Shown here in pieces: positions 9,608 through 55,875 of a stretch of 64,000 nt of DNA. The DNA is from Chondrosia reniformis. Its lineage: Eukaryota; Porifera; Demospongiae; Chondrillida; Chondrillidae. A program made the position numbers and the translations under genes. Numbering within the stretch: the stretch's first letter is position 1; the number at the start of each line of letters is the position of its first letter. The notes under the pieces are model-generated. The model made no database searches and had not been told where the DNA came from. It saw only the letters and a list, made by a program, of their open reading frames with translations. The stretch spans positions 8,370,001 through 8,434,000 of the forward strand of contig OX359190.1 in assembly GCA_947172415.1 (NCBI GenBank), in the 5' to 3' direction.

Positions 9608-10213
9608 TTATCTTGCCGACTCTAGTTCACATTCTATATTGTTAGTTTTGCATGTAGCTACAGCAATTTCGTTACCATCAGCTTTTTCAAGACATTCTTC
9701 CAACTCTTTATCACAATCTCTAGGTTCTTCAGGGGCTTGCTCCCTAAATGCCTCACAATATGCTTTTCCTTCTTCCAGCAAGTCTGAGTAGGTTTCAATG
9801 TGTTCGTTGATTAAACATAACAAAAGCTCACTTTGGCATTCAGTTACGTCATTAAGAGGAATTTCTTCCTCCTCTTCTTCATTTTCATGTCCACATTCTA
9901 CAAAATCTTCATAACAGCTAGCATGCCTTTTAATTTCTGAGTGTCTCTTTTTGACTCCCCCACAAAATGCTGGCAAGCTACAGAACCTTTCATTGTACTT
10001 GTACACTTCATCTTCGGTGAAATATGCTAAGGAACATTCCAATAATTCCTTTTCACATTCTTCAAGAGATTGACTTTCCTCACATTTTTGAAGTTGATCT
10101 AAACAATTAGCATCTCTCTTCAGGGTTACCTTTGCATGGTGATCAGTTGCTGGAGCCCCATTAGTGATGACATTTGTTGCCAGTAGGGTAAGGAACAAGA
10201 TCATTCCCTTCAT
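9608..10213 (-). CDS. Secreted acidic cysteine-rich repeat protein, gene 1
   Basis: 201 residues, single exon. I do not recognise the family. Residues 1-19 form a signal peptide. The mature chain has 15 cysteines at 37, 44, 53, 60, 78, 84, 100, 107, 126, 133, 153, 167, 174, 188 and 195. Six of the pairs are spaced C-x6-C and one is C-x5-C, giving three similar modules. Dibasic sites lie at 32-33 (LKR), 88-90 (VKKR) and 95-96 (IKR), and a Glu-rich linker at 111-117. C-x6-C pairs seven residues apart suggest helices pinned by disulfides (inference). The start was chosen at MKGM, not the in-frame Met 22 codons upstream, because the TATA box lies 87-93 bases before MKGM and would put the upstream Met at or near the transcript start. 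The odd cysteine could serve dimerisation. Confidence 0.85.
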   Translation of the reverse strand: MKGMILFLTLLATNVITNGAPATDHHAKVTLKRDANCLDQLQKCEESQSLEECEKELLECSLAYFTEDEVYKYNERFCSLPAFCGGVKKRHSEIKRHASCYEDFVECGHENEEEEEEIPLNDVTECQSELLLCLINEHIETYSDLLEEGKAYCEAFREQAPEEPRDCDKELEECLEKADGNEIAVATCKTNNIECELESAR

Positions 10214-10296
10214 TTTTGAGCCTGTTATGAAGATAATATACCTATTGATATTCTCACTGCAGTATATGCCAAGTTTCAAATCTATACCAAGTTACA

Positions 10297-10454
10297 CTCT
10301 TTTATAGGAGAATCTATAGTTATATATATTAACTGTTTTTATATATTTATTTAGCCGGGCATCCTTATTATGTACAAAGTAGAGCTAAACTCTTGCTAGT
10401 GATTATACGGAAAAGCTTGGGCAAATGTGGGGAGAAGTTAAGGCTTCGTGGAGG
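10297..10454 (-). promoter_or_regulatory. Promoter of gene 1
   Basis: TATA box CCTATAAAAGAG at 10297-10308 on the minus strand. The upstream block (10400-10454) is the most diverged copy: cgtgggcaaatgagggg reads cttgggcaaatgtgggg here. If the block matters, gene 1 may be expressed differently. Confidence 0.6.
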
Positions 10455-11212
10455 ATATACTATATAAAGTGCAAGTTACAAAATACCATAGTAAATCAGT
10501 ACCTAATTGATAATGTTACGGTTAAACCTCATTCATTCTAAACTGTATAGTACTATTATAATAGTGGCATGGTAAATATAGAATGCAAAAACCCTCCTAG
10601 GAGCCATATAAATTGTGCCTTATAACAAATGTACAGTATTGCCTTAAATTACAGTAAATCTACAGTCTAGCACCTGGCCGATAAACCTCGTGTAATTAAG
10701 AAATGAATGAATAAATGAATTTCTCAGACAGCTGTATCTCCAATGCTGGAGGTATATATGTTTAATCCCTTACAACATTATACATATATAAAAGTGGTAA
10801 TACTACAATTAGGCAATAATATTAATTAATTTATAATATATGTAATTCATATGGCTGGACCTAGAAACAGAATGGGCATATAATATACGTATATGAACTT
10901 GTATCCTTATGTGTATCTATTCTAAACTGTATAATATACGTAGTGCTGTGGTACACCCTCCTAGGAGCCATGAATTGCACATTGTTTAGTCATTTACATA
11001 TAATTACAGTATATACAATGTCAACGTGGTAGATCTATAATTATAAATGTAAGATTGTCATATAGCCCTTGCTGATAATCATAATGTTATGTGTAAGACA
11101 TAGGTATTCATTTTACCCCTAACATTAAATTTAATATATGACCTACATTCCATTCATTTCATTATGTATCCTAAGTTAACATCTCATTCAACTTTTTGGT
11201 GCCAAAAAGGTG
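10455..11212. repeat. AT-rich spacer shared with 56150-56700
   Basis: 10710-11160 matches 56190-56650 closely (ctcagacagctgtatctcc landmark). No coding region or RNA gene recognised. It ends where FB2 is inserted into a sequence that is uninterrupted at 56700 and 37880. Confidence 0.5.
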
Positions 11213-12124
11213 TATCAGAGAGTACGGTAGTACTCTCTAAGTAGGAATGGCCGGAAAAAAAAATGGCCGCCCTATCCAATGCATTAGCAATCAACACCTC
11301 ATAAATCGCCAACGAAGCGATTTTCGGATATATTCGGTTATTTGCAGCGATTAATGCACGTTTTCCTAAATGCCAAAACATGTTTCGACGCTCTACATGC
11401 TCTATAGCGTTCAAAAAGCGGCTAACTAGGAATAGACCCACTTCCAAAATTCATTTTTTCTTCTTCTTCTTCTTCTTCTTTTATTGAATAGACTAGCGCT
11501 AATATGCGAACTTATGCGGGCACGTACTAGTTATAAATCGTCATAGATATTTCGGAACTAGGGAATACACAGCCCTAAATCTGAATGCGTTCTACAATAA
11601 GCATGTTAATTGTGAAGAGCGAAAATTGTGGTCTTCTCGGACGCCATTTTTTAATTAAGAGATCATGGTTTTAGGCATATTTCTCTTGTCTAAGACTTTC
11701 AAATCAATTTAAAACAAGTAATATTAAGAGGAAAAAAGGGGGAATACAAGTAAATAAAAAACATTTACAAAAATGATGTTAGAAGTAGTAATGGCAGTGT
11801 TCACTAATACATCTGCAAAAAGTATCAAAACAAGACACTGATTATACGATAAGGCTAATCATACAGAAGTTACATATATACTGAAATTTAAGTAACTTAA
11901 CCATACACTTCTGTGTTTGGGCGCACCATTCCTACTTAAGGTTAGTGCGCCCAAACACAGAAGTGTATGGTTAAGTTACTTAAATTTCAGTATATATGTA
12001 ACTTCTGTATGATTAGCCTTATCGTATAATCAGTGTCTTGTTTCGATACTTTTTGCAGATGTATTAGTGAACACTGCCATTACTACTTCTAACATCATTT
12101 TAGTAAATGTTTTTTATTTACTTT
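11213..12124. mobile_element. Foldback element FB2
   Basis: Starts with the terminal hairpin (tcagagagtacggtagtactctc), continues through a body with a TTC/GAA microsatellite (11459-11483), and ends in a giant hairpin at 11748-12123 with arms of about 180 bases and an 18-base loop around 11927-11944. It is the reverse complement of FB3. The flanks match uninterrupted paralogs (aaaggtgtat...atggtaatttactgaat at 56700-56740), so it is an insertion. A minus-strand open frame of 87 codons (11184-11447) is not preserved in FB3 and is not called a gene. Confidence 0.7.
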
Positions 12125-12260
12125 ATAATGGTAATTTACTGAATTGAAGGGTGCTATTGAAAACACAAGTATATCTCCAAACTTGGTGCTTGTACACCAT
12201 AGTAGGCTTATATATTTCTTTCATTTGGTTGGTATTGCTTAGTAAGTGATTCTTGTGTAG

Positions 12261-14202: not shown

Positions 14203-14808
14203 TTATCTTGCCGACTCTAGTTCACATTCTATATTGTTAGTTTTGCATGTAGCTACAGCAATTTCGTTACCATCAGCTTTTTCAAGACATTCTTTCAACT
14301 CTTCATCACAATCTCTAGGTTCTTCAGGGGCTTGCTCCCTAAACGCCTCACAAAATGCTTTTCCTTCTTCCAGCAAGTCTGAGTAGGTTTCAATGTGTTC
14401 GTTGATCATACATAAGACACCTTCACTTTGGCATTCAGTAATGTCATTAAGAGGAATTTCTTCCTCCTCTTCTTCATTTTCATGTACACATTCTACAATG
14501 TCTTCAAAACAATCATGATCCCTTTTAAGTTCAGAGCTTCTCTTTTTGGCTCCCCCACAAAATACGGGCAAGCTGCATAACCTTTCAGAGTACTTGTACA
14601 TTTCATCTTCGGTGAAATATGCTAAGGAACATTCCAATAATTCCTTTTCACATTCTTCAACAGATTGACTTTCCTTACATTCTTCAAATTCATCATAGCA
14701 ATTAGCGCCCCTCTTCACGGTTACCTCTTCATGGTGATCAGTTACTGGAGCCCCATTAGTGATGACATTTGCTGCCAGTAGAGTAAGGAACAGGATCATT
14801 CCCTTCAT
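14203..14808 (-). CDS. Secreted acidic cysteine-rich repeat protein, gene 2
   Basis: 201 residues from MKGM with all 15 cysteines in the gene 1 positions. Differences cluster between cysteines: SVEEC for SLEEC, the block after the convertase-like site reads SSELKRDHDCFEDIVEC, and module two reads QSEGVLCMINEH. Dibasic sites follow VTVKR, GGAKKR and SELKR. It shares the IETYSDLLEEGK segment with gene 1, while most other members read IDTYPHLLEEGK, so genes 1 and 2 are probably nearest relatives in the C-terminal half. Single exon, TATA promoter directly upstream. Confidence 0.85.
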   Translation of the reverse strand: MKGMILFLTLLAANVITNGAPVTDHHEEVTVKRGANCYDEFEECKESQSVEECEKELLECSLAYFTEDEMYKYSERLCSLPVFCGGAKKRSSELKRDHDCFEDIVECVHENEEEEEEIPLNDITECQSEGVLCMINEHIETYSDLLEEGKAFCEAFREQAPEEPRDCDEELKECLEKADGNEIAVATCKTNNIECELESAR

Positions 14809-17400: not shown

Positions 17401-17409
17401 ATTTAATTG

Positions 17410-18054: not shown

Positions 18055-18651
18055 TTATCTTGCTGACTCTAGTTCACATTCTATATTGTTAGTTTTGCAA
18101 GTAGCTACAGCAATTTCGTTGCCATCAGCTATTTCAAGACATTCTTCCAACTCTTCATCACAATCTCTAGGTTCTTCAGGGACTTGCTCCCAAAACAACT
18201 TACAAAATGCTTTTCCTTCTTCCAGCAAGTGTGGGTAGGTGTCAATGTGTTCGTCAATTACACATAAGCCAAGCTCACTTTCGCATTCAGTCATGTCAAC
18301 AAGAGGAATTTCTTCCTCCTCTTCATCATTTTCATGTTCACATTCTACAAAATCTTCATAACAGCTAGCATGCCTTTTAATTTCTGAGTGTCTCTTTTTG
18401 GCTCCCCCACAAAATGCTGGCAAGCTACAGAACCTTTCAGATAACTTGTATAATTCATCTTCGGTGAAATATGCTAAGGCACATTCAACTACTTCCTTTT
18501 CACATTCTTCAAGAGATTGACTTTCCTCACATTCTTCCATCAGTGCATAGCACGGCTTCACAGTTTCCCTTGCATGGTGATCAGTTGCTGGAGCCCCATT
18601 AGTGATGATATTTGCTCCCAGTAGAGTAAGGAACAGGATCATTCCCTTCAT
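18055..18651 (-). CDS. Secreted acidic cysteine-rich repeat protein, gene 3
   Basis: 198 residues. A subgroup form: the N-terminal dibasic site is absent (ETVKPCYALMEEC in place of VTLKRDANCLDQLQKC), so only the central AKKR and IKR sites could be cleaved. The linker is NDEEEEEIPLVDM. The region before the last module reads CKLFWEQVPEEPRDC, with Trp unlike most copies. An in-frame Met lies 20 codons upstream, but the TATA box at 18736-18747 is only 25 bases before it, so MKGM is preferred. Nearest relative is gene 5 in the duplicated segment. Confidence 0.85.
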   Translation of the reverse strand: MKGMILFLTLLGANIITNGAPATDHHARETVKPCYALMEECEESQSLEECEKEVVECALAYFTEDELYKLSERFCSLPAFCGGAKKRHSEIKRHASCYEDFVECEHENDEEEEEIPLVDMTECESELGLCVIDEHIDTYPHLLEEGKAFCKLFWEQVPEEPRDCDEELEECLEIADGNEIAVATCKTNNIECELESAR

Positions 18652-20215: not shown

Positions 20216-20519
20216 ATGCTGCTCTTGTGGCTGCTTAATTATATAAAGTTCTGCATGCGCCAGCCTTTCTACAGTTCTATCTGCCAAGAGGTGATAAGGC
20301 ACACAAACGTGAATATGCTATCTTTGGAAACAGTCATTTTTCGACTTTTAGGGCATCTAAAGACACAGTATTTCTTGCTTCTTCTTGAAGTCAATCTTTT
20401 TGACCTTAGCTCATATGTATTAAGGCCTGTCACAGGTCTTTGGGGCTGCTTCCTGTTAATGATTAAGTATATTGATTGTTTAGTGGTTAATTAGAATATG
20501 CTCAATAAAATGGCCATTA

Positions 20520-22200: not shown

Positions 22201-22217
22201 ATATAAAAAAAATATAA

Positions 22218-23446: not shown

Positions 23447-23745
23447 TTACCTTGCCGACTCTAGTTCACATTCAAATTGGTTAGTTTCGCATGCAGTTAT
23501 AGCAATTTCGTTGTCCTCAGCTATTTCAAGACATTCTTCATACTCTTCATCACAATCTCTAGGTTCTTCAGGGACTTGCTACCAAAACAACTTACAAAAT
23601 GCTTTTCCTTCTTCCACCAAGTCTGAGTAGGTTTCCATGTGTTCGTCGATTAAACATGAGAAAACTTCATATTGGCATTCAGTAATTTCCTCAAGAGGAA
23701 TTTCTTCCTCCTCTTCTTCATTTACATGTACACATTCCAAAACCT
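23447..23745 (-). pseudogene. Broken cysteine-rich family member (gene 4)
   Basis: Only the C-terminal half remains, from VLECVHVNEEEE to the stop at 23447-23449. A nonsense codon TAG at 23579-23581 replaces GAG in the FWEQVPEEP segment. The signal peptide, first module and promoter are gone; upstream of about 23745 the sequence changes abruptly to the repeat of 23790. The remaining cysteines keep family spacing, so decay is recent. Confidence 0.8.
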
Positions 23746-40560: not shown

Positions 40561-40830
40561 GAGGTCATTTTCAGTCTCACTGCTAAGAGGTGAGACTTGC
40601 CCTGAAAGGGGTCAACAAAGCCCACATGTATCCTGGCCCAAGGTCTGGTAGGCATGGGGTACTGCAGGAGGAGAGCTTTTGGCTATCAGGCAAGAGTGAC
40701 TGTCCTAGCTCTACCTCTTGATGTCATTATCAAAACCAGTCCACTATGCACATAGCTTCTGGCCAGTGCTTTTATCCTTGCCCCCCAGCACAGATCAACC
40801 TTCTCTTGATACTTAATAAGAACTTTTGTG
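40560..40830 (-). mobile_element. Ty3/gypsy integrase remnant, inverted copy
   Basis: Contains the reverse of GPFQGKS-, RPWARIH- and KALARSY-like segments. It extends further into the zinc-binding region than the inverted copy at 7370. About 40 bases of the catalytic-core start (ggatatagcc area) are deleted. Confidence 0.5.
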
Positions 40831-40929
40831 GTTGCTATGTGATTGCTCTGTGGTAGCTCTTGTGGTTGCTATGTGGTTACTTGCCTACTGTATCTGTAAT
40901 ATGTATCTCCTTAAATGTTGGACACAAAG

Positions 40930-40989
40930 CTAACCAGAGGTATTCAACTTTGCACTCGTTTGTCAGCTCTCCAATGGATACTGTTACAG
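40930..40989 (+). pseudogene. IMPDH exon fragment, copy 2 (frameshifted)
   Basis: Same exon as 7593-7653 but one base shorter: cactcgtttg in place of cactccatttg. The frame is lost inside CTPFVSSP. Confidence 0.6.
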
Positions 40990-41693
40990 GTCAGCCTGAC
41001 AGGGTGTTTACACACTCAATATTATCAAAGTTATCCATACCTGGATGTGTACAGACACATGTACGTGGCCTTTGGGTTACAGACCATCTTGGTACATTGT
41101 GCACAAGGCATTTCTAATTGAAGTCTTAGTATATATATCATTATCCTTTATTGTGAGTAAGCAAAGCGTGCATACATTCCTCAGGTAACCTAGGGTGGAA
41201 CAGGTCTACAGGTTATCCTGATTGGTACACTTAAAAGTCACAGACCGACAGTCTCTTGAATGGTGGGGTGTGGAGTGTTCTGCATGTAGAACTTTATATA
41301 ATTGACGAAGCCTTTAGAGCAGCGTTCAATAAAGAATTATCTTCAGAGAAACTTAGCTACTCTACCAGCCTTTCTACCAGCTCCATCTGATAAGGCACTC
41401 ACATGAATATGATACCACATAATTTATACCACATACCACCATATACCACCACATTCAACGCCACAACAATTGTCCTATTCTCGGGCTACTTGGAATTTGA
41501 ATGGCAGCTTTGGTCTCACCATTTTACATGTATGATCCTGCTTATATATAAGTTCAAAATAAAATATCATATGGACCCACATACATATGCATGTTCATGC
41601 AGGGAATTTTCTACACTAGTCGTATATATAATAATAAAATATATTTTATGTACATGCATGGGCACTTTAATAATAATAATATATTATCTAATA
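40990..41693. repeat. Repeat R3 remainder, start of tandem unit 1
   Basis: Start of the first of three tandem units of about 6.54 kb (40.9-47.4, 47.4-54.0, 54.0-60.0 kb). AT-rich, with no supported gene. Confidence 0.5.
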
Positions 41694-42191
41694 CAGTGGA
41701 ACCTCACAAATGCGACCACCTTTGGGAGGTTGGTCTTAATTTTGAGGTGGTCCTATTTCTGAAATTATTACGTACTGTACACGTTGGAAATATCTGTCAA
41801 CAAAATGGTGGACCCTCAGCTGGCTTTCGTTTTCTACCTTAAAAATAAGCTTTTTCTTCCTTGAAAACGTTTGTGCAAGCTTTACCTTAGTAAAAGTGCT
41901 TTCTAAATCCCTTTCACCGGTTCAATGCTCGACGGTAAGGAGATATGGCATTGGCGACGACCGGAACTCGAACTTTGTTTTCACACCTGGTCGTTATACC
42001 GAGGTTATTTGCCGGCTATTTTAATAATATCGGTCCGAAAATAGTGGTTGTAAAAGTGAATTCCGAGGTGGTCGCTTTTCTGAACACCTAAAGTACAGCG
42101 CGAGATACAAGAATTACGCGGGACCAAAAAAGTGTGTTGCAATTTTGAGGTGGTCTTAATACTGAGGTGGTCGTTAAGCGAGGTTCCACTG
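41694..42191. mobile_element. Pogo-like MITE, 498 bases
   Basis: Termini CAGTGGAACCTC and GAGGTTCCACTG in inverted orientation, flanked by TA (41692-41693, 42192-42193). Inside, gaggtggtc motifs recur near both ends. No transposase frame. The homologous place in unit 3 (about 54742, aatacatatataaagctg) is an empty site. Confidence 0.7.
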
Positions 42192-42416
42192 TATATATAA
42201 AGCTGTATATATTTAATTGTTGATGAAGGCCCCTTTGGGTTGAAATATATATTCTTTTCTAAAGAATTCATTGTTACGTACTGAAGCTTGCTTATATTCC
42301 CAACAACTATATATATACTCCATATCTTTTGATAAATGATGGTAGGTAGTCAATACAAATCACATCCAATTTGTTATTTTAAATGTTGATTAATTTGGTT
42401 TACATTGAATAGGGTG

Positions 42417-42458
<42 letters not shown>

Positions 42459-42796
42459 CCCAAGATAATCACACTGAGGTAGATAATATAATACAGATGG
42501 AAATGACTCCCAAAATAATCACAATCAGGTATATAATTAAACGCTACAAGACTTTAGCCACACTGAAATTCTCAACTTCTGCATACAGAGTAGTAGTCTC
42601 TACAGATCATATAAGGTTAAACACATGGCCTTCCAATTACCTTTTCACACCTTAGTATAGACTGAAGATGATGCAACCGCATGCCATTATCAGCAAAAAT
42701 TCCAGTCTCATGTAGGGGGTCTCAGCCAATAATCACCGCGGATTTGACTTGCCTTCAGGAGTACCGTTGGTTGCTTGCATGCATTCACATAAACAA
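42192..42796. repeat. Hammerhead-like variant, (TA)16 and flank
   Basis: 42218-42245 is a ttgatga...gggttgaaa motif. 42421-42452 is a TA microsatellite. 42453-42530 has two imperfect repeats of gtgactcccaagataatcac. No gene. Confidence 0.5.
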
Positions 42797-42902
42797 CAGG
42801 GTTAGAGACAATTTGGTAACTTGCACACAAGGGTCATTATGAAATAAAAGGCCCCAGCCTTTATGTCCCTGTATGCAAGTTACCAAATTGTCACTAACCC
42901 TG
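42797..42902. mobile_element. 106-base foldback MITE
   Basis: Arms of about 36-40 bases: cagggttag...acaatttggtaacttgca and its complement, with the centre ataaaaggccccagcc. Twin copy at 49344-49449 in unit 2. It adjoins the gene 7 3' flank directly. Confidence 0.6.
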
Positions 42903-43057
42903 AAATTATTTTGAATTCTTACAGAGCTGCATAACAAATGTCTACATAGCTATAGACTATATGTTATCCTAAAGAATAGTTGACCTGCCTATTCTGGCTA
43001 TACAAATGCTTAATCTGTGTTCCTATTATAATGCAGCATCTGTCTTATAAGAACTCT

Positions 43058-43654
43058 TTATCTTGCCGACTCCAGTTTACAATCCATAAAGTCAGTATCG
43101 CATGCAGCTACAGCAATTTCGTTACCATCAGCTATTTCAAGACATTCTTCCAACTCTTCATCACAATCTCTAGGTTCTTCAGGGGCTTGCTCCCTAAATG
43201 CCTCACAATATGCTTTTCCTTCTTCCAGCAAGTGTGGGTAGGTGTCAATGTGTTCGTCAATTAAACATAAGGCAAACTCACTTTGGCATTCAGTCATGTC
43301 AATAAGAGGAATTTTTTCCTCCTCTTCATCATTTTCATGTTCACATTCTACAAAATCTTCATCACAGTTAGCATGCCTTTTAATTTCTGAGTGTCTCTTT
43401 TTGGCTCCCCCACAAAATACTGGCAAGCTACAGAACCTTTTAGATAACTTGTAGAATTCATCTTCGGTGAAAAATGTTAAGGCACATTCAACGAATTCCT
43501 TTTCACATTCTTCAATATATTGACTTTCCTCACATTCTTCCATCAGAGCAAAGCACGGCTTCACAGTTACCTTTACATGGTGATCAATTGCTGGAGCCCC
43601 ATTAGTGATGACATTTGCTCCCAGTAGAGTAAGGAACAGGATCATTCCCTTCAT
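43058..43654 (-). CDS. Secreted acidic cysteine-rich repeat protein, gene 7
   Basis: 198 residues, gene 3 subgroup at the N-terminus (VTVKPCFALMEEC). Distinctive points: YIEECEKEFVEC, ALTFFTEDEFYKLSKRF, an acidic linker broken by Lys (NDEEEEKIPLI), and the ending DTDFMDCKLESAR shared only with gene 9. Cysteines are complete. MKGM is chosen over an in-frame Met 20 codons upstream, which lies only 25 bases from the TATA box. It sits in tandem unit 1; gene 9 is its positional twin in unit 2, although the two differ in many residues between cysteines. Confidence 0.85.
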   Translation of the reverse strand: MKGMILFLTLLGANVITNGAPAIDHHVKVTVKPCFALMEECEESQYIEECEKEFVECALTFFTEDEFYKLSKRFCSLPVFCGGAKKRHSEIKRHANCDEDFVECEHENDEEEEKIPLIDMTECQSEFALCLIDEHIDTYPHLLEEGKAYCEAFREQAPEEPRDCDEELEECLEIADGNEIAVAACDTDFMDCKLESAR

Positions 43655-43738
43655 TTTTGTGACTGTTATGAAAATAAAATACCTATTGATTTTCACTGCA
43701 GTATAAAATGCCAAGTTTCAAATCTATAACAAGTTAAA

Positions 43739-43911
43739 CTCTTTTATAGGAACTGTACATGTTTATATATTGTATTATTATAATTAGTTAGCTAGTATAT
43801 ATTTACATCATTATTATTTATTAAGTAGAGGTAAGCTCTTGCTAGTGATTATAAGGAAATTTTCTAGGAAAGCGTGGGCAAATGAGGGGAGGAGTTAAGG
43901 CTTCATGGAGG
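43739..43911 (-). promoter_or_regulatory. Promoter of gene 7
   Basis: TATA box 43739-43750, upstream block ending at 43911. The spacer between them is shorter than for genes 3 and 5 because the agccgagcatc part is missing. Same form as for gene 9. Confidence 0.6.
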
Positions 43912-45062
43912 ATATACTATATATAGTGCAAGTTACAATATACCATAATAGTAATCAATACCTAATTGATAATAAAATTAATTCATATGGTTGGACCTCA
44001 TTCATTCAATCATTCATTCATTTCATATTTAATACATCTCATTCACTGTTTTGGTACCAAAAGGTGTGTATAATATTGTCGTGGTAATTTACTGAATTGA
44101 AGTAGAAGGGTGCTGTTGAAGGTGCTGAAAACACCAGTATCTTCGAATTTGGTGCTTGTGTATCTGCCTTGTCTTGGTAGTGTAACTTTGTAGGCATATA
44201 AGTGGTAAAGGCTTATAATGCTAGCAAGTAGTTGAGCCATATATACGTACCTGGGTGGACGGTCTGGTAGCCCCTTGCAAGTGGTGATGGTTTGTAGCCC
44301 TGTACGTATATAATAAGCACTCTAATAATAATAATAATAATATACCCCTATATTTAGCATGGCAGCTGTATGCCCCTGTAACATGTGAACAGTTGACTTT
44401 GACTGGAGTCCACGAGATCATACATATTCATGTACATGGTGGTCTCTCTTAAAAGAGCCAAAATTGGGTCTAGCAGTTTGATTCAGTGTATCAATTCAAG
44501 AAATCCCATGCATGGTGGTATGTGTATTAACTGGCTTACATTTAGCATCAAAGCATGCATGGTCAATATATATATTTTGAGCAATAAAAAGTACACTTTG
44601 ATGATATAAATTGTACACTGTAGGCCTTCTTTCTTTCATTTGGTTCATATTGCTTGGTAAATGACTCTTAATTGTGTAGGTACGTAGGTAAAAGATAGAG
44701 CTGGCCAACAAACAAACTGTTGAATTATATACTGTGCTATATATAGGAAATTCACATGCATTTATACATTTTATAACTGATTTAAGTTGCTTGAGGTAAT
44801 GAAGGAACTTACATTGCTGAAGCCATATTCAATGTGGTTTAAACTACAGAACCACTATATATTAGGAAATCAAATATGCATTATGTTGACTCTCAAAAAA
44901 GGAGCACTAACTGAATCTATATATTTACCAGTCAATCAGGTTCTATAGAGCTGTATTAATTTTTATGCACGAAGAACTATAAATATATATAAAATCAATT
45001 TAGGCCTTTATATATAGAAGCTTCAATGACACAATACATGATAACATGAAATGCACAATATT
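43912..45062. repeat. R2 copy, carrier-exon stub and flank
   Basis: 44030-44420 is R2. 44688-44753 is the first two-thirds of the aralar-type exon, cut off after aggaaattcaca and so not spliceable. No gene. Confidence 0.5.
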
Positions 45063-45353
45063 CTATACAACAATTTTCCTAGGTCCATATATGCCTCCTA
45101 TTGTTTCTAAATCATTATCTGTTTTTGTGGTGATTTGATTGCAATTTTCATCAAGTATATAAGAAAGATTTTTTTCACCAAATTTATTTCTCAAACCAAT
45201 TTTGATCATTTTCATATGTGAAAAGCTTCGTTCCACTGATGCTGTCCCAATTGGAATTGTCACGCAAATATTGGCCAGGGTATTCAAATTAGGGAACATT
45301 GTTTTGAGCATTTCAATTATTGTTACAAGATAGTTTAGAGCCAAAGTAGCCAC
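45063..45353 (-). mobile_element. hAT transposase C-terminal fragment, copy 3
   Basis: Open over 96 codons, containing LNTLANICVTIPIGTASVER and SFSHMKMIKIGLRNKFGE. A frameshift near YILDENC, after the conserved part, removes the original C-terminus. Confidence 0.6.
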
Positions 45354-45429
45354 AAATATCCTTACTCAAAGTGAAGCAAAGAAGACTTAGTACAAAAAGC
45401 TTGCAGACTATGTGCATATACTAGTCAGC

Positions 45430-46100
45430 TTCTAATTTATAGATAAAACCTACCAGACCTTGGGACAGAATACATGTGGGCTTTGTTGGCCCTTTTCAGG
45501 GCAAGTCCCACCTCTTAGCAGTGAATGTACGTGTTCTTTCCAAGTGTCCAGTGATTTTTAAGATGTCTAACTAATACCACAACTAGTAAGACATTGCATG
45601 AGGTCTTAAAGGGCCCCCAGTTAACAACCACAGTGAATTTGATGTACCTTGAGAGTGAACTAAGATATTAATGTTTCACTACATTCACACATATGCATGG
45701 CTTCTAAGTTATAGACCATCTTGTAACTTGCTTATAAGACTGTGACTGTTTTCTGTGGCAACTGTATTCGCGGCCATAAAGAACTGGACACACTCTAAAT
45801 AGGTAGATACAGACTCTGAAACTGTTGTTCCACTGTAGCCATCCCTGTTGCCAGATGTGATACCGTGGGTTCAAGATAATGAGGTGGCGATCGTGCAACA
45901 TATGAATCAACTTATGCACATGCAGCTATAGCTCATTCAATCAACTAACCGCTTACAGTAAAATAACACACATATTTAAACTACACTTAAGTGATTATAC
46001 ATATAAAACTGATTACAAACGATAACTGACTAGTGACTTAATAGGCATGACTCAACATAGTTACACAACATTACAAGAGAAAATTGTCATCAATTCAAAA
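45430..46100 (+). mobile_element. Ty3/gypsy debris, tandem unit 1
   Basis: Integrase core fragment (45430-45620) followed by the sequence also found at 29681. Stops throughout. The 45720-45860 part, read on the minus strand, has a fragment resembling Gag (see 59166). Confidence 0.45.
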
Positions 46101-46592
46101 TGTAAAGCGCAACTAAAGTGACATCAGCTTCAACTGATAGAAGCCTAATTTAAGAGAGCACAAATATGTCCAAACTTTTGATAACAGATCTATATAGCTG
46201 TAGATATTATTGACACAAAGCCATAAAAATTTAGATCGTGATTCCCTAGAGGCCTGCATAGATCATGATTTCCTAATTGCAAACTTGCATGAGAATCACC
46301 TGAAGATTTCCTAATTGTGGTTCAGTGGTTTATTACATCCCATGGACCAATTTTTAAGTTCCTTGCTTCAAATCTCATTTTGGATTGTGTAAGAGTTGGT
46401 ATAGAGTGTGTGGATCGTAGCTAATTTTCTCTGAGAAGAAAATTCATCATTGAATGATGCTCTGATAGCTTGCATGCTTAAATAGAGGTGATAATTTATA
46501 AGGTGCATGAAGCACATGAATATGGTTGATACCATTAATTATAGTCTTCATAAAGTTGTTTAATTCACTTGAGATTAACTAGATGGGACTCT
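46101..46592 (-). repeat. Inverted R1 end abutting gene 8
   Basis: Reverse complement of R1. It breaks at gatggg (about 46588) exactly where the stop-codon side of gene 8 begins; the R1 homology resumes beyond the start codon at about 47203. Confidence 0.6.
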
Positions 46593-47174
46593 TTATCTTG
46601 CTGACTCTAGTTCACATTCTAGATGTGCAGTTTCACATGCAGCAATATCATTAGTTCTTTCAAGACATTCTTCCAACTCTTCATCACAATGTCTAGATTC
46701 TTCAGGGGCTTGCTCCCTAAATGACTCACATAATGCTTTTCCTTCTTCCAGCAAGTGTGGGTAGTTGTCAATGTGTTTGTCGATTAAACATAAGAAAAAT
46801 TCATTTTGGCATTCAGTTATTTCATTAAGAGGAATTTTTTCCTCCTCTTCATTTTCATGTCCGCATTCAAAACACCTAACATGCCTTTTAAGATCTGAGT
46901 GTCTCTTTTTAGCTCCCCCACAAAATACTGGCAAGCTACAGAACCTTTCCATTAACTTGTTCATTTCATCTTCGGTGAAATATGCTAAGCCGAAACATTC
47001 AAGTCCTTCTTTTTCACATTCTTCAAAAGATTTACTTTCCTCACATTCTTCCATCTGTTCAGAGCAATCAGTGTCTCTCTTCACGGTTACCTTTGCATTG
47101 TGATCAGTTGCTTGAGCCCCATTAGTGATTACATTTGCCCCCAGTAGAGTAAGGAACAGGATCATTCCCTTCAT
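46593..47174 (-). CDS. Secreted acidic cysteine-rich repeat protein, gene 8 (divergent, promoter-less)
   Basis: 193 residues, the most divergent type together with gene 10. The N-terminus is TVKRDTDCSEQMEEC with the first dibasic site kept. The central C-x6-C is shortened to C-x2-C (VRCFECGHEN), the linker is NEEEEKIPLNE, and the last module is reduced (ERTNDIAACETAHLEC); still 15 cysteines. It has an extra Gly (ECFGLAYF) relative to gene 10 from a 3-base insertion. Only about 25 bases of family leader remain before the flank changes to gypsy/R1 sequence, so the TATA box and upstream block are absent. No stops, so it may be expressed from another promoter or be newly dead. Confidence 0.75.
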   Translation of the reverse strand: MKGMILFLTLLGANVITNGAQATDHNAKVTVKRDTDCSEQMEECEESKSFEECEKEGLECFGLAYFTEDEMNKLMERFCSLPVFCGGAKKRHSDLKRHVRCFECGHENEEEEKIPLNEITECQNEFFLCLIDKHIDNYPHLLEEGKALCESFREQAPEESRHCDEELEECLERTNDIAACETAHLECELESAR

Positions 47175-47194
47175 TTTTGTGACTGTTATGAAGA

Positions 47195-47350
47195 TAATGT
47201 GTGATGCATGGGGTACTGCTGGAGGAGCTTTTGGCTCTCAGGCAAGAGTGACTACCTCTACCTCTTGATGTCATTATCAAAACCAGTCCACCCTGCACAT
47301 AGCTTCTAGCCAGTGCTTTTATCCTTGGCCCCAAGCACAGATCGACCTTC
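47195..47350 (-). mobile_element. Ty3/gypsy integrase remnant upstream of gene 8
   Basis: The minus-strand reading includes RIKALARSYV and a following piece with several frame errors. It replaces the normal promoter of gene 8 and lies in the same orientation as the gene. Confidence 0.5.
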
Positions 47351-47483
47351 TCTTGATACTTAATAAGACCTTTTGTGGTTGCTATGTGATTACCTCTAGA
47401 TCTGTGGTAGCTCTTGTGGTTGCTATGTGGTTACTTGCCTACTGTATCTGTAATATGTATCTCCTTAAATGTTGGACACAAAG

Positions 47484-47544
47484 CTAACCAGAGGTATTCA
47501 ACTTTGCACTCCATTTGTCAGCTCTCCAATGGATACTGTTACCG
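47484..47544 (+). pseudogene. IMPDH exon fragment, copy 3
   Basis: Open, 61 bases, reading LTRGIQLCTPFVSSPMDTVT; the last codon is ACC in place of ACA, still followed by G|GTCAGC. Start of tandem unit 2. Confidence 0.6.
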
Positions 47545-48234
47545 GTCAGCCTGACAGGGTGTTTACACACTCAATATTATCAAAGGTATCCATACCTGGA
47601 TGTGTACAGACACATGTACGTGGCCTTTGGGTTACAGACCATCTTGGTACATTGCATTTCTAACTGAAGTCTTAGTATATCATTATCCTTTATTGTGAGT
47701 AAGCAAAGCGTACATACGTTCCTCAGGTAACCTAGGGTGGAACAGGTCTACAGGTTATCCTGATTGGCACACTTAAAAGTCACAGACCGACGGTCTCTTG
47801 AATGGTGGGGTGTGGAGTATTCTGCATGTAGAACTTTATATAATTGACGAAGCCTTTAGAGCAGCGTTCAATAAAGAATTATCTTCAGAGAAACTTAGCT
47901 ACTCTACCAGCCTTTCTACAGCTCCATCTGATAAGGCACACACATGAATATGATACCACATAATTTATACCACATACCACCATATACCACCACATTCAAC
48001 GCCACAACAATTGTCCTATTCTCAGGCAACTTGGAATTTGAATGGCAGCTTTGGTCTCACCATTTTACATGCATGATCCTGCTTATATATAAGTTCAAAA
48101 TAAAATATCATATGGACCCACATACATATGCATGTTCATACAGGGAGTTTTCTATACTAGTCGTATATATAATAATAAAATATATTTTATGTACATGCAT
48201 GGGCACTTTAATAATAATAATATATTATCTAATA
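47545..48234. repeat. Repeat R3 remainder, tandem unit 2
   Basis: Near-identical to 40990-41693. No gene. Confidence 0.5.
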
Positions 48235-48732
48235 CAGTGGAACCTCACAAATGCGACCACCTTTGGGAGGTTGGTCTTAATTTTGAGGTGGTCCTATTTC
48301 TGAAATTATTACGTACTGTACACGTTGGAAATATCTGTCAACAAAATGGTGGACCCTCGGCTGGCTTTCGTTTTCTACCTTAAAAATAAGCTTTTTCTTC
48401 CTTGAAAATGTTTGTGCAAGCTTTACCTTAGTAAAAGTGCTTTCTAAATCCCTTTCACTGGTTCAATGCTCGACGGTAAGGAGATATGGCATTGGCGACG
48501 ACCGGAACTCGAACTTTGTTTTCACACCTGGTCGTTATACCGAGGTTATTTGCCGGCTATTTTAATAATATCGGTCCGAAAATAGTGGTTGTAAAAGTGA
48601 ATTCCGAGGTGGTCGCTTTTCTGAACACCTAAAGTACAGCGCGAGATACAAGAATTACGCGGGACCAAAAAAGTGTGTTGCAATTTTGAGGTGGTCTTAA
48701 TACTGAGGTGGTCGTTAAGCGAGGTTCCACTG
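48235..48732. mobile_element. Pogo-like MITE, second copy
   Basis: Same element and insertion point as 41694-42191, again 498 bases between TA dinucleotides, with only a few substitutions. It was copied with the unit, not inserted separately. Confidence 0.7.
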
Positions 48733-48949
48733 TATATATAAAGCTGTATATATTTAATTGTTGATGAAGGCCCCTTTGGGTTGAAATATATATTCTTTTC
48801 TAAAGAATTCATTGTTACTGAAGCTTGCTTATATTCCCAACAACTATACACTCCATATCTTTTGATAAATGATGGTAGGTAGTCAATACAAATCACATCC
48901 AATTTGTTATTTTAAATGTTGATTAATTTGGTTTACATTGAATAGGGTG

Positions 48950-48995
<46 letters not shown>

Positions 48996-49604
48996 CCCAA
49001 GATAATCACACTGAGGTAGATAATATAATACAGATGGAAATGACTCCCAAAATAATCACAATCAGGTATATAATTAAACGCTACAAGACTTTAGCCACAC
49101 TGAAATTCTCAACTTCTGCATGCAGAGTAGTAGTCTCTACAGATCATATAAGGTTAAACACATGGCCTTCCAATTACCTTTTCACACCTTAGTATAGACT
49201 GAAGATGATGCAACCGTATGCCATTATCAGCAAAAATTCCAGTCTCATGTAGGGGGTCTCAGCCAATAATCACCGCGGATTTGACTTGCCTTCAGTGTGA
49301 GCTAGGAGTACCGTTGGTTGCTTGCATGCATTCACATAAACAACAGGGTTAGAGACAATTTGGTAACTTGCACACAAGGGTCATTATGAAATAAAAGGCC
49401 CCAGCCTTTATGTCCCTGTGTGCAAGTTACCAAATTGTCACTAACCCTGAAATTATTTTGAATTCTTACAGAGCTGCATAACAAATGTCTACATAGCTAT
49501 AGACTATATGTTATCCTAAAGAATAGTTGACCTGCTTATTCTTGCTATACTAATGCTTAATCTGTGTTCCTACTATAATGCAGCATCTGTCTTATAAGAA
49601 CTCT
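48733..49604. repeat. TA microsatellite, foldback MITE and gene 9 3' flank
   Basis: (TA)n at 48953-48990 and the 106-base foldback MITE at 49344-49449 (arms acaatttggtaacttgca). A 13-base insertion (gtgtgagctagga area near 49296) distinguishes this unit from unit 1. Confidence 0.55.
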
Positions 49605-50201
49605 TTATCTTGCCGACTCCAGTTTACAATCCATAAAGTCAGTATCGCATGCAGCTACAGCAATTTCGTTACCATCAGCTATTTCAAGACATTCTTCCAA
49701 CTCTTCATCACAATCTCTAGGTTCTTCAAGGGCTTGCTCCCTAAACTCCTTACAAAAATCTTTTCCTTCTTCCAGCAAGTGTGGGTAGGTGTCAATGTGT
49801 TCATCGATTGCACATAAGAAATACTCATATTCACATTCAGTCATGTCATTAAGAGGAATGTTTTCCTCCTCTTCTTCGTTTTCATGTTCACATTCTACAA
49901 AATCTTCATAACAGTTAGCATGCCTTTTAATTTCTGAGTGTCTCTTTTTGGCTCCCCCACAAAATGCTGGCAAGCTACAGAACCTTTCAGATAACTTGTA
50001 GAATTCATCTTCGGTGAAATATGCCAAGGCACATTCAACTAATTCCTTTTCACATTCTTCCAAAGATCTACTTTCCTCACATTCTTCCAACAGTGCATAG
50101 CACGGCTTCACAGTTTCCCTTGCATGGTGATCAGTTGCTGGAGCCCCATTAGTGATGACATTTGCTCCCAGTAGAGTAAGGAACAGGATCATTCCCTTCA
50201 T
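49605..50201 (-). CDS. Secreted acidic cysteine-rich repeat protein, gene 9
   Basis: 198 residues. The N-terminal third resembles gene 3 (ARETVKPCYALLEEC), the C-terminus gene 7 (DTDFMDCKLESAR). Private changes are concentrated in the second module: ENIPLNDMTECEYEYFLCAIDEH and KDFCKEFREQALEEP. The flanking DNA of genes 7 and 9 is almost identical while the proteins differ at many sites, so change is faster in the coding region than around it (by eye). MKGM chosen over an in-frame Met 14 codons upstream for the same TATA-spacing reason. Confidence 0.85.
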   Translation of the reverse strand: MKGMILFLTLLGANVITNGAPATDHHARETVKPCYALLEECEESRSLEECEKELVECALAYFTEDEFYKLSERFCSLPAFCGGAKKRHSEIKRHANCYEDFVECEHENEEEEENIPLNDMTECEYEYFLCAIDEHIDTYPHLLEEGKDFCKEFREQALEEPRDCDEELEECLEIADGNEIAVAACDTDFMDCKLESAR

Positions 50202-50285
50202 TTTTGTGACTGTTATGAAGATAAAATACCTATTGATTTTCACTGCAGTATAAAATGCTAAGTTTCAAATCTATAACAAGTTAAA

Positions 50286-50458
50286 CTCTTTTATAGGAAC
50301 TGTACATGTTTATATATTGTATTATTATAATTAGCTAGCTAGTATATATTTACATCATTATTATTTACTAAGTAGAGGTAAGCTCTTGCTAGTGATTATA
50401 CGGAAATTTTCTAGGAAAGCGTGGGCAAATGAGGGGAGGAGTTAAGGCTTCATGGAGG
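50286..50458 (-). promoter_or_regulatory. Promoter of gene 9
   Basis: TATA box 50286-50297, upstream block with cgtgggcaaatgagggg ending at 50458. Nearly identical to the gene 7 promoter. Confidence 0.6.
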
Positions 50459-51551
50459 ATATACTATATATAGTGCAAGTTACAATATACCATAATAGTA
50501 ATCAATACCTAATTGATAATAAAATTAATTCATATGGTTGGACCTCATTCATTCAATCATTCATTCATTTCATCATGTGTCTTATTTAATACATCTCATT
50601 CACTGTTTTGGTACCAAAAGGTGTGTATAATATTGTCGTGGTAATTTACTAAATTGAAGTAGAAGGGTGCTGTTGAAGGTGCTGAAAACACCAGTATCTT
50701 CGAATTTGGTGCTTGTGTATCTGCCTTGTCTTGGTAGTGTAACTTTGTAGGCATATAAGTGGTAAAGGCTTATAATGCTAGCAGGTAGTTGAGCCATATA
50801 TACGTACCTGGGTGGACGGTCTGGTAGCCCCTTGCAAGTGGTGATGGTTTGTAGCCCTGTACGTATATAATAAGCACTAGATTTAGCATGGCAGCTGTAT
50901 GCCCCTGTAACATGTGACCAGTTGACTTTGACTGGAGTCCACGAGATCATACATATTCATGTACATGGTGGTCTCTCTTAAAAGAGCCATAATTGGGTCT
51001 AGCAGTTTGACTCAGTGTATCAATTCAAGAAATCCCATGCATGGTGGTATGTGTATTAACTGGCTTACATTTAGCATCAAAGCATGCATGGTCAATATAT
51101 ATATTTTGAGCAATAAAAAGTACACTTTGATGATATAAATTGTACACTGTAGGCCTTCTTTCTTTCATTTGGTTCATATTGCTTGGTAAATGACTCTTAA
51201 TTGTGTAGGTACGTAGGTAAAAGATAGAGCTGGCCAACAAACAAACTGTTGAATTATATACTGTGCTATATATAGGAAATTCACATGCATTTATACATTT
51301 TATAACTGATTTAAGTTGCTTGAGGTAATGAAGGAACTTACATTGCTGAAGCCATATTCAATGTGGTTTAAACTACAGAACCACTATATATTAGGAAATC
51401 AAATATGCATTATGTTGACTCTCAAAAAAGGAGCACTAACTGAATCTATATATTTACCAGTCAATCAAGTTCTATAGAGCTGTATTAATTTTTATGCACG
51501 AAGAACTATAAATATATATAAAATCAATTCAGGCCTTTATATATAGAAGCT
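50459..51551. repeat. R2 copy, carrier-exon stub and flank, unit 2
   Basis: As 43912-45062, but the TAA-rich run of R2 is deleted near 50878, which fuses two open frames into a chance 116-codon frame. Carrier stub at 51217-51282. Confidence 0.5.
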
Positions 51552-51896
51552 TCAATGACACAATACATGATAACATGAAATGCACAATATTCTATACAAC
51601 AATTTTCCTAGGCATTTTCTAGTCCATATATGCCTCCTATTGTTTCTATATAAATCATTATCTGTTTTTGTGGTGATTTGATTGCAATTTTCATCAAGTA
51701 TATAAGAAAGATTTTTTTCACCAAATTTATTTCTCAAACCAATTTTGATCATTTTCATATGTGAAAAGCTTCGTTCCACTGATGCTGTCCCAACTGGAAT
51801 TGTCACGCAAATATTGGCCAGGGTATTCAAATTAGGGAACATTGTTTTGAGCATTTCAATTATTGTTACAAGATAGTTTAGAGCCAAAGTAGCCAC
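51552..51896 (-). mobile_element. hAT transposase C-terminal fragment, copy 4
   Basis: Twin of copy 3, reading TIPVGTASVERSFSHMKMIK, with the same downstream frameshift. No other transposase part is present. Confidence 0.6.
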
Positions 51897-51974
51897 AAAT
51901 ATCCTTACTCAAAGTGAAGCAAAGAAGACTTAGTACAGAAAGCTTGCAGACTATGTGCATATACTAGTCAGCTT

Positions 51975-52640
51975 CTAATTTATAGATAAAACCTACCAGA
52001 CCTTGGGACAGAATACATGTGGGCTTTGTTGGCCCTTTTCAGGGCAAGTCCCACCTCTTAGCAGTGAATGTACGTGTTCTTTCCAAGTGTGCAGTGATTT
52101 TTAAGATGTCTAACTAATACCACAACTAGTAAGACATTGCATGAGGTCTTAAAGGGCCCCCAGTTAACAACCACAGTGAATTTGATGTACCTTGAGAGTG
52201 AACTAAGATATTAATGTTTCACTACATTCACACATATGCATGGCTTCTAAGTTATAGACCATCTTGTAACTTGCTTATAAGACTGTGACTGTTTTCTGTG
52301 GCAACTGTATTCGTGGCCATAAAGAACTGGACACACTCTAAATAGGTAGATACAGACTCTGAAACTGTTGTTCCATTGTAGCCATCCCTGTTGCCAGATG
52401 TGATACCGTGGGTTCAAGCTAATGAGGTGGCGATCGTGCAACATATGAATCAACTTATGCACATGCAGCTATAGCTCATTCAATCAACTAACCGCTTACA
52501 GTAAAATAACACACATATTTAAACTACACTTAAGTGATTATACATATATAACTGACTACAAATGATAACTGACTAGTGACTTAATAGGCATGACTCAGCA
52601 TAGTTACACAACATTACAAGAGTAAATTGTCATAAATTCA
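51975..52640 (+). mobile_element. Ty3/gypsy debris, tandem unit 2
   Basis: Counterpart of 45430-46100, with the RPWDRIH-like variant (ttgggacag) shared between units 1, 2 and 3 but not with 29460. Confidence 0.45.
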
Positions 52641-53133
52641 AAATGTAAAGCGCAACTAAAGTGACATCAGCTTCAACTGATAGAAGCCTAATTTAAGAGA
52701 GCACAAATATGTCCAAACTTTTGATAACAGATCTATATAGCTGTAGATATTATTGACACAAAGCCATAAAAAGTTAGATCGTGATTCTCTATAGGCCTGC
52801 ATAGATCGTGATTTCCTAATTGCAAACTTGCATGAGAATGACCTGAAGATTTCCTAATTGTGGTTCAGTGGTTTATTACATCCCATGGACCAATTTTTAA
52901 GTTCCTTGCTTCAAATCTCATTTTGGATTGTGTAACAGTTGGTAGAGTGTGTGGATAGTAGCTAATTTTCTCTGAGAAGAATATTCATCATTGAATGATG
53001 CTCTGATAGCTTGCATGCTTAAATAGAGGTGATAATTTATAAGGTGCATGAAGCACATGAATATGGTTGATACCATTAATTATAGTCTTCATAAAGTTGT
53101 TTAATTCACTTGAGATTAACTAGATGAGACTCT
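52641..53133 (-). repeat. Inverted R1 end abutting gene 10
   Basis: Same junction as at gene 8 (tagatgagactctttatc), one base different, showing that gene 10 and its flank were copied as a unit with gene 8. Confidence 0.6.
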
Positions 53134-53712
53134 TTATCTTGCTGACTCTAGTTCACATTCTAGATGTGCAGTTTCACATGCAGCAATATCATTAGTTCTT
53201 TCAAGACATTCTTCCAACTCTTCATCGCAATGTCTAGATTCTTCAGGGGCTTGCTCCCTAAATGACTCACATAATGCTTTTCCTTCTTCCAGCAAGTGTG
53301 GGTAGTTGTCAATGTGTTTGTCGATTAAACATAAGAAAAATTCATTTTGGCATTCAGTTATTTCATTAAGAGGAATTTTTTCCTCCTCTTCATTTTCATG
53401 TCCGCATTCAAAACACCTAACATGCCTTTTAAGATCTGAGTGTCTCTTTTTAGCTCCCCCACAAAATACTGGCAAGCTACAGAACCTTTCCATTAACTTG
53501 TTCATTTCATCTTCGGTGAAATATGCTAAGAAACATTCAAGTCCTTCTTTTTCACATTCTTCAAAAGATTTACTTTCCTCACATTCTTCCATCTGTTCAA
53601 AGCAATCAGTGTCTCTCTTCACGGTTACCTTTGCATTGTGATCAGTTGCTTGAGCCCCATTAGTGATTACATTTGCCCCCAGTAGAGTAAGGAACAGGAT
53701 CATTCCCTTCAT
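53134..53712 (-). CDS. Secreted acidic cysteine-rich repeat protein, gene 10 (divergent, promoter-less)
   Basis: 192 residues, nearly identical to gene 8 apart from lack of the extra Gly (ECFLAYF) and CFEQMEEC for CSEQMEEC. It keeps the C-x2-C form of the fourth pair and the short last module. The family promoter is absent, as for gene 8; upstream is gypsy/R1 sequence. The frame is open in both copies, with at least one protein-level and one in-frame indel difference, which suggests the frame has survived the duplication. Whether it is transcribed cannot be told. Confidence 0.75.
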   Translation of the reverse strand: MKGMILFLTLLGANVITNGAQATDHNAKVTVKRDTDCFEQMEECEESKSFEECEKEGLECFLAYFTEDEMNKLMERFCSLPVFCGGAKKRHSDLKRHVRCFECGHENEEEEKIPLNEITECQNEFFLCLIDKHIDNYPHLLEEGKALCESFREQAPEESRHCDEELEECLERTNDIAACETAHLECELESAR

Positions 53713-53739
53713 TTTTGTGACTGTTATGAAGATAATGTG

Positions 53740-53890
53740 TGATGCATGGGGTACTGCTGGAGGAGCTTTTGGCTCTCAGGCAAGAGTGACTACCTCTACC
53801 TCTTGATGTCATTATCAAAACCAGTCCACCCTGCACATAGCTTCTAGCCAGTGCTTTTATCCTTGGCCCCAAGCACAGATCGACCTTCTC
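53740..53890 (-). mobile_element. Ty3/gypsy integrase remnant upstream of gene 10
   Basis: Identical in layout to 47195-47350. KALARSYV is readable, followed by frame errors. Any promoter for gene 10 must lie here or farther upstream. Confidence 0.5.
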
Positions 53891-54020
53891 TTGATACTTA
53901 ATAAGACCTTTTGTGGTTGCTATGTGATTGCTCTAGATCTGTGGTAGCTCTTGTGGTTGCTATGTGGTTACTTGCCTACTGTATCTGTAATATGTATCTC
54001 CTTAAATGTTGGACACAAAG

Positions 54021-54081
54021 CTAACCAGAGGTATTCAACTTTGCACTCCATTTGTCAGCTCTCCAATGGATACTGTTACCG
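54021..54081 (+). pseudogene. IMPDH exon fragment, copy 4
   Basis: Open, matches copy 3 including the ACC codon. It starts tandem unit 3. Confidence 0.6.
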
Positions 54082-55272
54082 GTCAGCCTGACAGGGTGTT
54101 TACACACTCAATGTTATCAAAGGTATCCATACCTGGATGTGTACATACTGCACATGTACGTGGCCTTTGGGTTATACAGACCATCTTGGTTCATTGTGCA
54201 CAAGGCATTTCTAACTGAAGTCTTAGTATATCATTATCCTTTATTGTGAGTAAGCAAAGCGTACATACATTCCTCAGGTAACCTAGGGTGGAACAGGTCT
54301 ATAGGTTATCCTGAATGGCACACTTAAAAGTCACAGATTGATGGTCTCTTGAATGGTGGGGTGTGGAGTGTTCTGCATGCAGAACTTTATATAATTGACG
54401 AAGCCATTAGAGCAGCGTTCAATAAAGAATTATCTTCAGAGAAACTTAGCTACTCTACCAGCCTTTCTACAGTTCCATCTGATAAGGCACACACATGAAT
54501 ATACCACCACATTCAACACCATAACAATTGTCTTATTCTCGGGCTACTTGGAATTTGAATGGCAGCTTTGGTCTCACCATTTTACATGCATGATCCTGCT
54601 TATATATAAGTTCAAAATAAAATATCATATGGACCTACATACATATGCATGTTCATGCAGGGAGTTATACTAGTCTTATATATATAAAATATATTTTATG
54701 TACATACATGCATGGGCACTTTAATAATAATAATAGTATATAATACATATATAAAGCTGTATATATTTAATTATTGATGATGGCCCCTTTGGGTTGAAAT
54801 ATATAATATTATTCTTTTCTAAAGAATTCATTGTTACTGAAGCTTGCTTATATTCCCAACAACTATATACTTCATATCTTTTGATAAATGATGGTAGGTA
54901 GTCAATACAAATCACATTCAATTTGTTATATTAATTGTTGATTAATTTGGTTTACATTGAATAGGGTGCACTATATATATATATTTTTGGCCATCCCTAC
55001 TATATGGAGGGTACTACTGTATGTATATCAATGTGGTGGTAATAAATGAATGATAAAGCCACTTTGAATTGAATTCTATATAACCAACTGAAATTTCTAA
55101 AACATTGAATTATTTTGAATTCTTACAGAGCTGCATAACAATTGTACTACGTACATAGCTATAGACTATATGTTATCCTAAAGAATAGTTGACCTGCTTA
55201 TTCTTGCTATATATATACTAATGCTTAATCTGTGTTTTTACTATAATGCAGCATCTGTCTTATAAGAACTCT
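54082..55272. repeat. Repeat R3 remainder and gene 11 3' flank, unit 3
   Basis: Lacks both the pogo-like MITE (empty site near 54742) and the 106-base foldback MITE. The TA run is short here (54970-54984) and continues into ggccatccctactatatgg, the ancestral-looking joint. Confidence 0.55.
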
Positions 55273-55875
55273 TTATCTTGCCGACTCCAGTTCACACTCC
55301 ATAAAGACAGTATCGCATGTAGCTACTGCAATTTTGTTACCATCAGCTATTTCAAGACATTCTTCCAACTCTTCATCACAATCTCTAGGTTCTTCAGGGG
55401 CTTGCTCCCTAAACGCCTCACAAAATGCTTTTCCTTCTTCCAGCAAGTGTGGGTAGGTGTCAATGTGTTTGTCGATTAAACATAAGAAAAGCTCACTTTG
55501 GCATTCAGTTATGCCATTAAGAGGAATTTCTTCCTCCTCTTCTTCATTTTCATGTTCACATTCTACAAAATCTTCAAAACAGCTAGCAAACCTAATTTCT
55601 GAGTGTCTCTTTTTGGCTCCCCCACAAAAAGCTGGCAAGCTACAGAACCTCTTAGATATCTTGTACATTTCATCTTCGGTGAAATATGCTAAGGAACATT
55701 CCATTACTTCCTTTTCACATTCTTCAAGAGATTGACTTTCCTCACATTCTTCCAACTGTACCATGCAATCAATGTCTCTCTTCACGGTTACCTTTGCATG
55801 GTGATCAGTTGCTGGAGCCCCATTAGTGATGACATTTGCTCCCAGTAGAGTAAGGAACAGGATCATTCCCTTCAT
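55273..55875 (-). CDS. Secreted acidic cysteine-rich repeat protein, gene 11
   Basis: 200 residues with 15 cysteines. The N-terminal dibasic site is kept (VTVKRDIDCMVQLEEC), the AKKR site is kept, but the following IKRH is reduced to IRF (SEIRFASCFEDFVEC) by a small in-frame deletion, leaving one central site. The ending DTVFMECELESAR is shared with gene 6. It lies in tandem unit 3 at the position of genes 7 and 9 but belongs to the other N-terminal subgroup, so position and sequence relationship disagree. Confidence 0.85.
   Translation of the reverse strand: MKGMILFLTLLGANVITNGAPATDHHAKVTVKRDIDCMVQLEECEESQSLEECEKEVMECSLAYFTEDEMYKISKRFCSLPAFCGGAKKRHSEIRFASCFEDFVECEHENEEEEEEIPLNGITECQSELFLCLIDKHIDTYPHLLEEGKAFCEAFREQAPEEPRDCDEELEECLEIADGNKIAVATCDTVFMECELESAR

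Follow-up and report, generated by a model that had tools for sequence, protein, structure and literature searches.

A tandem array of cysteine-rich, acidic and probably secreted proteins in the sponge Chondrosia reniformis, and site-specific positive selection on their mature parts

Array genes and their distribution in the genome

The window analysed here is a 64-kb stretch of the genome of the sponge Chondrosia reniformis (C2:8370001-8434000; the searched genome comprises 117,379,552 bases in 15 contigs), and it carries ten open genes and one truncated copy of a cysteine-rich protein family, all on the minus strand. This inventory, first proposed by a sequence-only reading of the window, is confirmed, and the array turns out to be larger than that reading had described; what is new here is that strong site-specific diversifying selection is found on the mature parts of the proteins. 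The open genes encode 192–201 amino acids each, counted from the MKGM start, with exactly 15 cysteines, and the full-length isoelectric point (pI) is 4.05–4.60, that is to say, the proteins are acidic. All ten begin with a conserved leader of lysine plus hydrophobic residues (MKGM...NGA), which was assigned by reading the sequence itself. The 15 cysteines and the shared leader had been claimed before and hold for every gene; the six C-x6-C pairs claimed with them are found in eight of the ten, the other two (starting at 46593 and 53134) having five pairs and a C-x2-C in third place, and the spacing varies otherwise by small in-frame insertions and deletions. Since nine of the proteins are 72–84% identical to the first one, chance resemblance is excluded. 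A tblastn search with all ten proteins (E 1e-3) gave no further copy in the window beyond these genes and the broken piece.

In window coordinates, the genes are W09 (9608..10213) and W14 (14203..14808), with 201 amino acids each; W18 (18055..18651), W26 (26231..26827, whose numbering serves as reference for the selected sites), W36 (36152..36748), W43 (43058..43654) and W49 (49605..50201), with 198 each; W46 (46593..47174) with 193 and its near copy W53 (53134..53712) with 192; and W55 (55273..55875) with 200, the query of the first structure model. The broken copy at 23450..23746 retains the C-terminal piece only (about residues 100–198) and has an internal TAG. The members read, W09 among them, are single-exon genes, open from leader to stop without introns.

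With W26 as query, a six-frame genome search (E up to 10) gave 41 places. Full-length copies account for 35 of them, 34 being free of stops and one carrying a TGA (C3:5.29); three further queries, taken from distant members, added no new full-length member. The main array, 21 open genes that all run on the minus strand, covers 126 kb (C2:8,299,898-8,425,875), and the window is its right-hand part. Eight further members lie in C2:6.86-7.08 Mb, and six stand singly at C2:7.53, C2:8.11, C1:2.64, C13:1.50, C13:5.23 and the TGA-bearing C3:5.29. In the tree, the 34 open members fall into two clades with support of 100/100, the tree tool warning of long branches for L045, L044 and L046. Clade I has 26 members with 15 cysteines, except L031 with 14, and clade II has eight members with 14 cysteines, lacking the sixth, of which L044 has one more in an upstream stretch of its open frame and L045 lies at the left edge of the main array. 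L031 (C2:6919843-6920451) lacks the eleventh cysteine, unlike clade II with its missing sixth, and may be useful for deducing the disulfide pairing. Near the TGA member, three fragments covering only about residues 5–58 of the family were also seen at C3:5289756-5295696.

The array probably grew by block duplication, because groups of tree neighbours reappear along it in much the same order (L019-L024-L010, L017-L026-L016 and W09-W14-W18) and because a two-gene segment of 7.3 kb is directly duplicated at 40652..54512, its copies 40652-47961 (with W43 and W46) and 47206-54512 (with W49 and W53) being 96.5% identical. As for the promoter, TATAAA is located 77–102 bases before the ATG in 23 of the 27 loci outside clade II, and at that position in none of the seven clade II loci examined, out of eight. 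W46 has no TATAAA, TATATA or TATAAG within 300 bases upstream; both it and W53 are without the TATA region of the sibling genes, the sequence upstream of them has the look of a dispersed repeat, and homology, judged by eye, is limited to the part from about 24 bases before the ATG to some 5 bases past the stop. On the plus strand of the window, two short open frames that are similar to each other (157-516 and 5983-6300) resemble this upstream repeat by eye.

Search for relatives and protein architecture

The earlier reading recognised no named family, and this is borne out as far as relatives were searched, namely in Pfam, NCBIfam, PDB (by sequence and by fold) and GTDB, other sponges lying outside this scope; a significant match to a known family appeared in neither Pfam, NCBIfam nor PDB. 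When 28 members were scanned, no match at E 0.001 or better was obtained in Pfam (best E 0.012) or in NCBIfam (best E 0.0061), and the commonest weak matches were zf-TRAF_2 in five members (E 0.018) and NF009591 in nine (E 0.012). The PDB profile search gave no relative, listing one chain only at E 0.29; the PDB fold searches with two weak models gave no match, and the GTDB scan gave no relative. Among the literature matches listed, no description of the cysteine-rich family was found.

It had also been suggested that the cysteine pairs mark three related helical units, and this stands better for the first two units than for the third. In the hhalign comparison, unit A (cysteines 1–4) and unit B (cysteines 7–10) were aligned with a probability of 92.7 and an E of 4e-7 for one comparison, while the alignment of A with C was weak (E 0.0013) and that of B with C was hardly there (E 0.049). 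The similarity is probably driven in large part by the shared cysteines, and the profile comparison supports an internal repeat of C-x6-C units. The AlphaFold2 models of W55 (predicted local distance difference test, pLDDT, 59; predicted template modelling score, pTM, 0.42) and of a clade II mature chain (pLDDT 70, pTM 0.49) are both all-helical, with helices covering the cysteine pairs. Because the number of cysteines in the array genes is odd, at least one of them must be free or paired between chains.

Units A and B are joined by a basic linker with the motif KKR, whose middle K is invariant in 28 members and whose other two residues are nearly so. Such conservation would suit precursors that are cut at this linker and act as fragments, and the linker overlaps stretches of low confidence in the models (86-96 in the first, 65-70 in the second); disulfides could, however, hold the parts together, and processing of this kind is judged very improbable.

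The spacing of the cysteines was also compared with known frameworks. Alpha-hairpinins carry two C-x3-C motifs in a helical hairpin and the CHCH domain carries a twin C-x9-C; both identities are ruled out, the spacing of the family being C-x6-C. Insect chemosensory proteins are characterised by C-x6-C-x18-C-x2-C; unit B reads C-x6-C-x18-C-x6-C in eight of the ten window genes, and as there is no Pfam match, this identity was rejected too.

Positive selection and a possible binding role

By counting, the pooled ratio of nonsynonymous to synonymous rates (dN/dS, omega) was 0.38 in the leader vs 0.93 in the mature part, with 70 of the 170 mature pairs above 1. Site models were then fitted to 178 codons of the clade I array genes; 19 of these 20 genes were used, since W53 is a near copy of W46 and was dropped. 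Neutrality was rejected, with a likelihood ratio statistic (LRT) of 101.8 for M1a/M2a and 100.6 for M8a/M8, and omega was about 5 at about 18% of the codons. Three segments analysed on their own trees gave LRTs of 26.7, 20.4 and 33.4, and 12 representatives gave 115.4. To control for recombination, 20 neutral data sets were simulated, each a mosaic built from the three segment trees but analysed on one tree; the LRT of these null runs was 0.01–19.9, so that the observed value of about 102 is five times the null maximum. All 15 cysteines are retained in the array genes analysed.

The 23 sites with a posterior of 0.95 or more in the first fit were carried into later tests. Twelve of them are columns more than 90% hydrophobic; among the 140 remaining non-cysteine sites there are 33 such columns (Fisher p 0.006). 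Ten of the 23 lie inside C-x6-C pairs, compared with 26 of the 140 others (p 0.011). Moreover, if the second pair of each unit is numbered from its first cysteine, Cys+4 and Cys+5 are under selection in A, B and C alike (6/6).

Sponges, which lack adaptive immunity, are exposed to dense microbial communities, and it is tentatively proposed that the family serves binding or defence outside the cell. The proteins would be acidic, all-helical and probably secreted, made up of three related units, which paired cysteines would hold together, and so far found only in this genome; their single-exon genes, mostly with a TATA box, would have multiplied through repeated block duplication into the 126-kb array, after which the mature parts diverged under positive selection while leader and cysteines stayed fixed. 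As binders, they may use a hydrophobic pocket or contact face that was retuned from copy to copy, and the partners may be microbes, competitors or small molecules. A binder role is considered the likeliest because hydrophobic positions make up half of the sites that change most clearly, and six of these stand at the same helix position in three units. The sequence-only reading had offered immune effectors, allorecognition and structural secretions side by side; the selection, of a kind that is typical of proteins whose binding partners vary or change, appears to fit a binding or defence role and to speak against a purely structural one.

By kind, though not as a homology group, the family belongs with effector or binding proteins, since both tandem expansion with a fixed leader and fixed cysteines and site-specific positive selection were found. 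Venom and effector families are rapidly evolving, secreted and built on cysteine scaffolds, and what is shared with them is the fixed leader and cysteines, the tandem copies and the positively selected residues; the differences are the acidic helical three-unit scaffold and the hydrophobic columns that make up half of the selected sites. A model for the possible function is okadaic acid binding protein 2 of Halichondria okadai, likewise a sponge protein without sequence relatives, which binds a small cytotoxin tightly and, according to a review, has an aequorin-like overall structure (PMC5754374). It was absent from the PDB profile list and from the fold results, the latter obtained with weak models of the family.

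Several points weigh against the binding reading. When one omega is fitted to the whole mature region, it does not differ from 1 (p 0.92), and the same holds for every partition, so that the case for selection rests on the site models, which were written here and are not those of PAML. Of the 20 null runs, nine lie above the nominal 5% threshold (5.99) and two above 17, which means that the test is inflated by recombination between copies, though in none of the 20 did the inflation reach 100; the LRTs of 20–33 of the segments are not far above the null maximum and are less convincing alone. The site posteriors are plug-in values from the first, less converged fit (27% of sites, omega 4.3), and the Cys+4/+5 pattern was noticed before testing, so that its 1e-5 is descriptive. 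Hydrophobic residues could also be exchanged by drift inside a buried core, and, both models being weak, the pocket or interface is a putative one. That gene conversion, or relaxation and decay of copies, produced the whole signal as an artefact would agree with the recombination of tandem copies, with the broken and TGA copies, with the null runs above the limit and with the whole-region omega. Against it stand the distance of the observed LRT from the null maximum, the segments that stay significant on their own trees and the retained cysteines, and such an artefact is given very little credence.

Alternative roles, the published proteome and neighbouring features

Another explanation is an abundant soluble protein of the matrix, mucus or secretory granules in the collagen-rich sponge body, whose copies serve dose and whose variation is tolerated. 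The acidic character, the many near-identical copies, the TATA promoter and the average omega near 1 would all agree with this, as would the proteins of a soluble extract described below; dose alone, however, does not predict an omega of about 5 at 18% of the sites, and the explanation is regarded as unlikely, yet worth keeping in view.

The extract in question was studied by Scarfi et al. (2020), who purified cytotoxic fractions from C. reniformis. Spot 6 of the cytotoxic peak P4 was identified by mass spectrometry as isotig02770 and isotig02771, of 203 amino acids, 23.3 kDa and pI 4.59/4.55, with a best database match of E 4.4 (PMC7459819). Five clade II genes at C2:6.928-6.980 Mb all encode 203 amino acids with 23.28–23.31 kDa and pI 4.53–4.62. 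By this agreement in length, mass and pI, the two isotigs are very probably clade II members. If so, the family is translated and soluble, which concerns clade II and not the array of the window; likely close relatives in a published sponge proteome would make the family testable now, and a candidate identity would be gained for two proteins that had gone unexplained in the cytotoxic extract of this biotechnologically interesting sponge.

The occurrence of the isotigs in P4 also raises the possibility of a cytotoxin family contributing to the known protein cytotoxicity of the sponge, and on two human lines the half-maximal effective concentration (EC50) was calculable for P4 only. In the purer active fraction P5, however, every one of the four identified spots was chondrosin, and the EC50 of P5 was 1.12 vs 1.99 μg/mL for P4 on RAW 264.7 and 4.9 vs 3.56 on L929 (PMC7459819). 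A toxin role is not favoured, because no isotig02770/02771 was identified in P5, yet P5 was about as potent as P4 on the two mouse lines; the main cytotoxic activity probably does not depend on the family. The isotig identity, moreover, stands on three numbers and concerns clade II, not the window's array, so that the cytotoxin explanation is held to be decidedly unlikely.

Chondrosin itself is reported as a secreted protein of 199 amino acids without relatives (best database E 5.9) and with a full-length pI of 5.27; its signal is cut between AEA and SK, leaving 178 amino acids of pI 5.11 (PMC7459819). As described there, it resembles the family in its host, similar size, secretion, lack of database relatives and kind of extract. 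By leader and pI the window proteins differ from chondrosin, having the MKGM...NGA leader and a full-length pI of 4.05–4.60, and no member of the AEA/SK type was found among the sequences read or in genome searches (E up to 10) for which four of the family's proteins served as queries.

Molecules of self/non-self recognition might likewise be tandem, variable, probably secreted and under diversifying selection. No known recognition domain was found in Pfam and no membrane anchor was seen by eye, and this role is considered more doubtful still than that of a cytotoxin.

Within the preferred reading of secreted binders, a bolder version may be put forward only as speculation: a new animal class of extracellular carrier or recognition proteins, in which three disulfide-stapled helical units have their equivalent hydrophobic positions jointly retuned by selection, giving the sponge a genome-encoded set of at least 34 binders for metabolites of symbionts, competitors or diet. 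Apart from this version, the 34 open copies, the lack of relatives in the searches and the omega of about 5 at defined sites point to an arms race at the molecular level, or else to a system for diversifying ligands, in an animal of an early-branching lineage.

Some other features of the window remain to be described. A similar short open frame recurs on the minus strand between array genes, at 20517-20924, 28656-28970 and 57993-58334; it is probably part of a duplicated unit or repeat, and the one at 20517-20924 gave no Pfam match above the cut-off. A remnant of a hAT transposase dimerisation domain is located at 51552-51896 (minus strand, E 8e-06), and beside the array, at 61468-62424 on the minus strand, there is a match to the C-terminal part of glycosyltransferase family 10 (fucosyltransferase) with E 3.7e-26.

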